Source of the DNA: Nitrospira sp. CG24D
Lineage (GTDB): Bacteria; Nitrospirota; Nitrospiria; Nitrospirales; Nitrospiraceae
Assembly: GCA_002869855.2 (NCBI GenBank)
Contig: NEWQ02000023.1
Coordinates: forward strand, 121,286 to 185,285
Direction of reading: 5' to 3'
Length of the DNA: 64,000 bases
The position numbers and the translations under genes were made by a program. Positions 59,395-60,866 of the stretch are shown in pieces. The notes under the pieces are model-generated. The model worked only from the letters and a program-made list of their open reading frames with translations. It was not told the DNA's origin and searched no databases. Position 1 is the stretch's first letter; each line of letters starts with the position of its first letter.

Positions 59395-59480
59395 CGGCAC
59401 CAACCCCTTTTCCTTCTCCTCTCCTTCGTGTTACGTTTCTCGCCCGATTCGATCCATAGACCCTCAAGAGGAGCCTCTGC

Positions 59481-60350
59481 ATGAAGAACGGATTTTTTCG
59501 CGGTCACGGCCTCGGCAACGATTACATCGTGATGAACCCCAAAGAACTGACCTTCAAACTGACGCCCAAGAACATCAAAGCGGTCTGCGATCGCAATTGG
59601 GGCCTGGGCAGCGACGGCATTCTGGCGCTCGCTCCGAGCAAGAAAGCTGATTTCGGTCTCCGGATCTACAACCCGGACGGCAGCGAGGCGGAGAAATCCG
59701 GCAACGGATTGCGCATTTTCGCCCGCTATCTGCACGCGACAGGAAAGACAAAGAAGAAACATTTTACCGTCGAGACCAAAGGCGGCCTCGTCACGATCGA
59801 TTTGCAGGTCGATCGCCATGGCGATGCGAGTGCCGTGACGGTCGAGATGGGACAGGCCACGTTCAAGCCGGCGGCGCTTCCCTGCACGATGGCCGTCGAT
59901 GAATTGATCCAGCAGCCGATCGAAGCGGCCGGACGTGCGTTGTCCTTCATGGGTGTGAGCGTCGGAAACCCCCATTGCGTGGTCTTCAAGCAAGCGGGAG
60001 AATCCTGGTCGCGCGAAGATCTGCTGACCCTCGGCCCGGTCCTGGAGAACCACTCGCTCTTCCCGAAACGGACGAATGTTCAACTAGCGATCCCGACCGG
60101 TCCCAAAGAAATTTTCATCCTCATTTGGGAGCGTGGCGCCGGAGAGACACAGGCCTCCGGATCTTCATCCTGTGCGGCAGCCAGCGCGGCGGTTCGCCTG
60201 GGGCTGGTCAAGAGTCCGGTCACGGTCAAGATGCCGGGCGGAACGTTGAATATCGAAGTGGCGAAAGATTTTTCGCTCACAATGAAAGGGCCGGTCGCCG
60301 AAGTCGCGCGCGGTACCCTAAGCCCGTCGTTTCTCCGCACGCTTCGCTGA
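59481..60350 (+). CDS. dapF: Diaminopimelate epimerase homologue with both catalytic Cys replaced by Ser
   Basis: The 289-residue protein has the length and two-domain fold of DapF, with conserved GHGLGNDYIVM, YNPDGSEAEKSGNGLR, GVSVGNPHCVVF, ERGAGETQASGSSSCAAA and SLTMKGPVAEVARGTL. The two catalytic cysteines of known DapF (in CGNG and in ACG-TGA) are both Ser here: S73 in EKSGNGLR and S226 in TQASGSSSC. The codons are TCC in both places, so no sequencing slip by one frame is involved. Substrate-binding residues around them look intact. Either a Ser-based variant epimerase or a related isomerase with another substrate. GAGGAG precedes the ATG. Confidence 0.85.
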   Translation: MKNGFFRGHGLGNDYIVMNPKELTFKLTPKNIKAVCDRNWGLGSDGILALAPSKKADFGLRIYNPDGSEAEKSGNGLRIFARYLHATGKTKKKHFTVETKGGLVTIDLQVDRHGDASAVTVEMGQATFKPAALPCTMAVDELIQQPIEAAGRALSFMGVSVGNPHCVVFKQAGESWSREDLLTLGPVLENHSLFPKRTNVQLAIPTGPKEIFILIWERGAGETQASGSSSCAAASAAVRLGLVKSPVTVKMPGGTLNIEVAKDFSLTMKGPVAEVARGTLSPSFLRTLR

Positions 60351-60351
60351 G

Positions 60352-60866
60352 GGAATCGATGGGTGATGGTAGATGGTTGATGGATGATTGCGGATGATAT
60401 GAGATACAGAGAACCCAGGAGAGATGGAGAAGAAAACAATAGCGCGGGTCGAAGACATGCCTGTCTTTCAAACTTGCTTTGTTTTAGCATTGAGCATTGA
60501 GAAAGACTCGCGTGCCTTTGCGACTGACTTCAAATGGCTTCGCAGCCAGATGTTGCGTTCATCTGAATCGGTTTGTGCGAACATGACCGAAGGTTTCTAC
60601 TCCCAATACAGCACGGAATACCTTCAGGCCTTGTATCGGTGCCGCCGTGAAGGACGAGAAACGATGACGCATGTGCGCTACGCAATGGCCGTCCATCAAT
60701 TATCAGACGAAAGAGGGCGGGCTTTGGCGGAAGGGTACGACGAAGCTCTCACGCAATTGGCGAATCTCATCGCGAGCATTGAACGCAAGATCCGTCTACG
60801 CGGAAAAGCCAAGGCGGAGCGCCCATCGAACTCCTCTTGAACCATCGACCATTTCCCATTGACCAT
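60352..60866. repeat. Inverted-repeat-flanked unit carrying a four-helix-bundle gene
   Basis: Left arm (60358-60398) GATGGGTGATGGTAGATGGTTGATGG and right arm (60840-60866) ACCATCGACCATTTCCCATTGACCAT are inverted GATGG/CCATC-rich repeats related to the pair at 58884-58987. They enclose only the IVP-like gene. The right arm reaches the uvrC start codon. Confidence 0.55.
60424..60840 (+). CDS. Four-helix-bundle protein (IVP/S23 family)
   Basis: The 138-residue all-helical protein has the family pattern: VEDMPVFQTCFVLALSIEKDSRAF, LRSQMLRSSESVCANMTEGF, STEYLQALYRCRREGRETMTHVRYA and LAEGYDEALTQLANLIASIERKI. These are the family of proteins first seen in intervening sequences of 23S rRNA genes, and now known as free-standing four-helix bundles of unclear function. 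Here it stands between dapF and uvrC, flanked by inverted repeats. GGAG overlaps the beginning (GGAGAGATGGAG), so it is well placed for translation. Confidence 0.82.
   Translation: MEKKTIARVEDMPVFQTCFVLALSIEKDSRAFATDFKWLRSQMLRSSESVCANMTEGFYSQYSTEYLQALYRCRREGRETMTHVRYAMAVHQLSDERGRALAEGYDEALTQLANLIASIERKIRLRGKAKAERPSNSS

Follow-up and report, generated by a model that had tools for sequence, protein, structure and literature searches.

The dapF gene of Nitrospira sp. CG24D, located within the window (the whole stretch of 64,000 nucleotides that was analyzed), codes for a homologue of diaminopimelate (DAP) epimerase with serine at both positions of the catalytic cysteines, and the question arises whether such a protein can interconvert LL- and meso-DAP and, if so, by what chemistry. 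DapF, which is required for the synthesis of lysine and of the cell wall, serves as a model enzyme and has been proposed as a target for antibacterials; its accepted mechanism is a thiolate/thiol pair. A preliminary description of the locus had claimed that both catalytic cysteines are replaced by serine (S73 and S226), each encoded by TCC and each embedded in an intact motif, and this was confirmed by the alignments and the sequence. S73 and S226 fall on the catalytic Cys columns in alignments to the solved DapFs (8qzy, 3ejx, 4ik0, and 9mro), and pair with C73 and C217 of E. coli in an alignment of 87 rows. The positions of the gene and of the residues concerned are listed in Table 1.

Table 1. 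Features at the dapF locus of Nitrospira sp. CG24D, in positions of the window
Feature	Position	Strand	Basis
dapF, Ser/Ser clade, ATG start, 289 aa	59481..60350	+	TIGR00652, PF01678, AlphaFold2 model, Foldseek
AGGAG, ribosome-binding-like, 7 bases upstream of dapF ATG	59469..59473	+	Sequence
Lys72, fixed in 35/35 Ser/Ser rows, absent from all other DapF rows	59694..59696	+	Alignment; putative role
Ser73, codon TCC, motif EKSGNGLR, replaces catalytic Cys73, N-terminus of helix 74-86	59697..59699	+	Alignment, model
Ser226, codon TCC, motif TQASGSSSC, replaces catalytic Cys217, N-terminus of helix 227-239	60156..60158	+	Alignment, model
Ser229, fixed in 35/35 Ser/Ser rows, Gly in 52/52 Cys217 rows	60165..60167	+	Alignment; putative role
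Free-standing 23S rRNA intervening-sequence-type protein gene, between dapF and uvrC	60424..60840		PF05635

The assignment to DapF was examined by profile and by fold. The CG24D protein scored 237.2 bits against the DapF equivalog TIGR00652, about twice the cut-off of 114.65, and PF01678 (DAP_epimerase) matched both of its halves. This was the only Pfam match, and the protein is thus not a member of the proline racemase superfamily by sequence; the score against NF038284 (bifunctional DapF/glutamate racemase) was 60 bits, relative to the cut-off of 350. The AlphaFold2 model (pLDDT 90.2 and pTM 0.85, from 22 sequences) gave best Foldseek matches that were all DapF, with 8qzy first (TM 0.86/0.90), as expected for the two-domain DapF fold, while proline racemase and the hydroxyproline enzymes were only distant fold matches with 11-16% identity. 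The protein lacks, however, the catalytic Cys73/Cys217 pair and the Cys that belongs to the PROSITE signature (quoted in PMC8225329). In comparison with canonical DapF (H. influenzae, E. coli, A. thaliana, and P. aeruginosa 8qzy), it shares the fold, the length, the two-domain repeat, the DAP-binding residues, the pathway context, and a profile score over the cut-off, but differs in having Ser for both catalytic Cys, Ile for Cys79, and four residues (P65, K72, Q201, and S229) that are fixed in the Ser/Ser clade only. The CG24D protein is DapF by descent and fold, of which the defining catalytic pair is non-canonical. In N. moscoviensis, dapF and uvrC are neighbors, and the PF05635 gene is absent at that place.

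The simplest explanation for a missing catalytic pair, that is, a sequencing error, a strain mutation, or a decaying gene, is refuted by the spread of the Ser/Ser state. All 80 relatives retrieved were Ser/Ser wherever position 73 or 226 was covered, including those on the complete chromosomes of N. moscoviensis and N. defluvii and those from three species of Sunxiuqinia (Bacteroidota), the DapF of which is about 49% identical to that of CG24D, and every relative read at an identity of at least 48% was Ser/Ser. The Ser/Ser state is far beyond chance, and the pair is lineage-wide, a point that the preliminary description had left for alignment. Because the contig scan started from peptides of the query itself, it favors close relatives, a bias that is smaller in the whole-genome searches by family and protein.

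Within the order Nitrospirales, the members read, from two families and with 64-100% identity, were Ser/Ser, except for five genomes, from four other genera of Nitrospiraceae, in which DapF is about 30% identical and carries Ser73/Cys217. The remaining DapFs read from Nitrospirota were Cys/Cys, or Ser/Cys in one more family (f7). In Methylomirabilota, the 42 Rokubacteria-type sequences read were Ser/Ser and another branch was Cys/Cys. Among the best matches read from 396 sampled genomes of Bacteroidota, Ser/Ser was found in Sunxiuqinia and one additional genome (G340) only, and the other 28 were Cys/Cys. In Nitrospira sp. CG24C, the Ser/Ser dapF is duplicated in tandem (L028, 4820-7034), giving two intact copies, each Ser/Ser. 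Three MAGs labeled Gemmatimonadota or Latescibacterota (L071, L072, and L073) carry a DapF that the tree places among those of Nitrospirales, owing to transfer, mis-binning, or mislabeling.

In the tree of 87 rows, the Ser/Ser sequences form one side of a fully supported branch, and the clade keeps its support (100/100) after removal of columns 72, 73, 226, and 229 together with five long rows. In a set of 134 distinct Ser/Ser sequences, position 73 is encoded by any of the six Ser codons and position 226 by four of them (TCC, TCG, TCA, and TCT), indicating that the residue, and not the codon, is what is kept; the identical TCC at both sites of the CG24D gene was therefore rejected as a meaningful sign. 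The median NG86 dN/dS against 60 Nitrospira homologues was 0.049, an approximate value because of high dS. This low ratio and the variety of Ser codons, together with an open frame preceded by a ribosome-binding-like site, also stand against error or decay. As judged from these sequence comparisons, Ser/Ser DapF is an old clade under purifying selection, and the earlier view that the paired change reflects selection and not decay is borne out by the single old clade, the fixed co-changes, and the low dN/dS.

The DapFs with Ser73 and Cys217 (EFSGNGAR ... ACGTG; loci L195-L199, L209, L212, and L219 of Nitrospirota), found in the other Nitrospiraceae genera and in f7, make up a second group apart from the Ser/Ser clade, in the opposite half of the tree, which argues for a separate origin; the simplest reading is that Ser73 arose twice. 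They resemble the CG24D protein in having Ser73 and in being the sole DapF of those genomes where counted, but differ from the Ser/Ser clade in keeping Cys217, position 72 being F or L and position 229 being G. The group sits within the own DapF lineage of its Nitrospirota class, and the Ser/Ser gene may have replaced the dapF of this lineage in most Nitrospiraceae. The direction of the Cys/Ser change and the transfer between phyla are what we infer.

The two serines are accompanied by other changes. P65, K72, S73, I79, Q201, S226, and S229 are present in 35 of 35 Ser/Ser rows and are absent or nearly so elsewhere, and L77, A126, and V161 are nearly fixed in the clade. Position 79 is Ile in the clade versus Cys in all other rows. 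General loss of cysteine was rejected as the cause because C36 and C166 are invariant within the Ser/Ser clade. In H. influenzae DapF, the distal end of DAP is held by N64, N157, N190, E208, and R209 (PMC8225329). Most of these residues are kept in all 35 Ser/Ser rows, as are N11, G74, N75, and G218 in the same numbering; the CG24D protein itself keeps N13, N64, G74, N75, N163, N199, E217, R218, G227, and S228. The position of Q44 is G in Ser/Ser DapF, but the same is true for six of 21 related Cys/Cys rows, including the plant and cyanobacterial enzymes.

A second, Cys/Cys dapF, for which the preliminary description had proposed to look, was not found by PF01678 in CG24D, the complete Nitrospira genomes, Sunxiuqinia, or the checked Rokubacteria and Latescibacterota genomes. 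No PF01678 protein other than the Ser/Ser DapF occurs in the CG24D genome (90% complete), and the same holds for Sunxiuqinia and for the complete genomes of N. moscoviensis and N. defluvii. The only genome found with both types, G664 of Methylomirabilota (L318 and L319), possibly offers a natural comparison pair, unless it is contaminated. On the contig that bears the CG24D dapF, lysA, dapA, and dapB follow one another, and dapL and murE are also present; the lysA, dapA, dapB, and dapL products exceeded the curated cut-offs, and LysA, with 536 bits, belongs to the ordinary family of meso-DAP decarboxylases. The DNPR motif of meso-DAP ligases (PMC3829189) occurs in MurE of nine Ser/Ser genomes. 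A search for DAP dehydrogenase gave nothing over the cut-off, and a bypass by this enzyme was therefore rejected. Growth of N. moscoviensis is supported by a mineral medium with nitrite and CO2 (PMC8407350). The dap pathway genes, the DNPR-type MurE, the absence of any DAP dehydrogenase match over the cut-off, and the growth in mineral medium altogether indicate that conversion of LL- to meso-DAP is needed, and Ser/Ser DapF is the sole recognized enzyme found that could do it. In the Bacteroidota hosts, dapF is linked to genes of the same pathway: in G340, the gene for LL-DAP aminotransferase (671 bits versus a cut-off of 585) lies 94 bp after the Ser/Ser dapF, and in Sunxiuqinia, the Ser/Ser dapF adjoins a lysA-type gene (284 bits, just below the cut-off of 298), with a divergent dapL (627 bits versus a cut-off of 365) about 2.7 kb away.

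The gene context bears on two further alternatives. The epimerase might be unneeded if MurE and LysA accept LL-DAP, leaving DapF as a relic with a structural role. Cell walls with LL-DAP do occur in some actinomycetes, and yet MurE of the Ser/Ser genomes carries the DNPR of meso-DAP ligases, LysA is of the ordinary family, and the binding residues of a relic would not stay under such a low dN/dS, making this explanation highly improbable. Alternatively, the protein might have another substrate or catalyze another reaction such as elimination, meso-DAP being supplied by an unknown enzyme. Its catalytic pair does differ from that of DapF, and dehydratase activity accompanies Cys-to-Thr/Ser changes in the proline racemase superfamily (PMC4113996; PMC8142540), but the distal DAP-binding residues are kept, the sole DapF stands beside a full DapL-type lysine pathway, dapL/lysA linkage is seen in two Bacteroidota lineages, and no DAP dehydrogenase passes the cut-off; such a role is thus improbable. 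Neither another substrate nor another lysine branch, both suggested by the preliminary description, is favored by these findings.

MurI (glutamate racemase) over the cut-off was found in none of CG24D, N. moscoviensis, N. defluvii, and the genomes of L081, L071, and L073, and a role of Ser/Ser DapF as the missing racemase was considered. It was set aside because Nitrospira has a D-amino-acid aminotransferase over the cut-off (110014-110814 on contig C5 of the CG24D genome), the Nitrospiraceae with Ser/Cys DapF also are without MurI, and Sunxiuqinia has both MurI and Ser/Ser DapF. The Rokubacteria genomes and those labeled Gemmatimonadota and Latescibacterota gave neither MurI nor D-amino-acid aminotransferase over the cut-off.

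With a probability of roughly 0.6, the Nitrospira Ser/Ser DapF is a working LL-/meso-DAP epimerase, in which the Cys/Cys site has been rebuilt as Ser/Ser. Its function in vivo as the LL-/meso-DAP epimerase of Nitrospira is very probable, and the chance that the two serines act directly as the acid/base pair is slightly better than even. DAP would be held as in ordinary DapF by N13, N64, N163, N199, E217, and R218. The roles of thiolate base and thiol acid would fall to Ser73 and Ser226, each at the N-terminus of one of the two opposed helices, which in the AlphaFold2 model begin right after these residues. The clade-specific K72 (beside S73) and S229 (three after S226) may lower the pKa of these serines or orient them; K72 is proposed as a tuner of Ser73 or as an alternative base.

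A plain exchange of Cys for Ser is known to be harmful. Cys is held to be favored over Ser for its lower pKa and easier desolvation (PMC8142540), Cys-to-Ser mutants of PddB retain less than 0.1% activity, with M. tuberculosis DapF reported likewise in the same paper (PMC8225329), and the activity of HisR Cys-to-Ser mutants is greatly reduced (PMC11602996). The H. influenzae single mutants C73S (2q9h) and C217S (2q9j), both of which were among the Foldseek matches, have the same substitutions and the same fold, but each was made singly to slow catalysis for crystals and is without the companion changes, while the Ser/Ser clade is natural and fixed. Another mechanism, also raised by the preliminary description, may apply: as engineered single exchanges nearly abolish activity, the active site of the natural Ser/Ser proteins must either have another tuning or use other chemistry, and the near-dead state of a bare exchange fits well with a swap that is accompanied by fixed neighbors on both sides.

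The other chemistry is represented by the main rival to a tuned Ser/Ser pair, that is, a DAP epimerase with a non-serine base (a clade-fixed residue, K72 above all; serine/water relay). K72 adjoins S73 in all 35 Ser/Ser rows, whereas every other row has Met, Gln, Phe, or Leu there; in other DapFs, this position is part of a loop curving around the substrate (PMC12039745), and Lys is used by other cofactor-independent epimerases (PMC8142540). Residue 72, however, makes no direct contact with the ligand in known DapF structures (PMC12039745), and K72 as the base leaves the change at S226 unexplained, so that this mechanism is rather unlikely.

For the tuned Ser/Ser pair, the closest precedent is found in the proline racemase superfamily, in which an active 4-hydroxyproline epimerase has Ser opposite Cys and trans-3-hydroxyproline dehydratase has Ser opposite Thr, the catalytic Ser being held by the +3 residue (PMC4113996). 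The likeness consists of natural Ser for catalytic Cys in a related fold, and S229 lies at +3 from S226; by this analogy, S229 is a proposed partner of Ser226. The superfamily differs in family and substrates, and its epimerase keeps one Cys, the Cys-less enzyme being a dehydratase.

No paper on Ser/Ser DapF, on any Ser/Ser cofactor-independent epimerase, or on Nitrospira DapF was found in a search that covered few subscription journals and is weak evidence of novelty. As far as the literature found shows, Ser/Ser DapF is a previously undescribed variant, the known precedents being Ser/Cys and Ser/Thr; we know of no assay of any member. Removal of a proton with a pKa of about 29 by cofactor-free racemases is generally explained by a Cys thiolate/thiol pair. 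The occurrence of a sole Ser/Ser DapF in lysine-making autotrophs implies that either a tuned serine does this chemistry or another residue does. The chances are about even that a two-serine, thiol-free epimerase of an essential pathway has become fixed in Nitrospirales, in Methylomirabilota of the Rokubacteria type, and in some Bacteroidota. Ser/Ser DapF is expected to escape thiol-reactive DapF inhibitors, and in annotation of metagenomes, catalytic-residue variants should not be called dead enzymes. The presence of the clade over several phyla makes the textbook mechanism of DapF directly testable.
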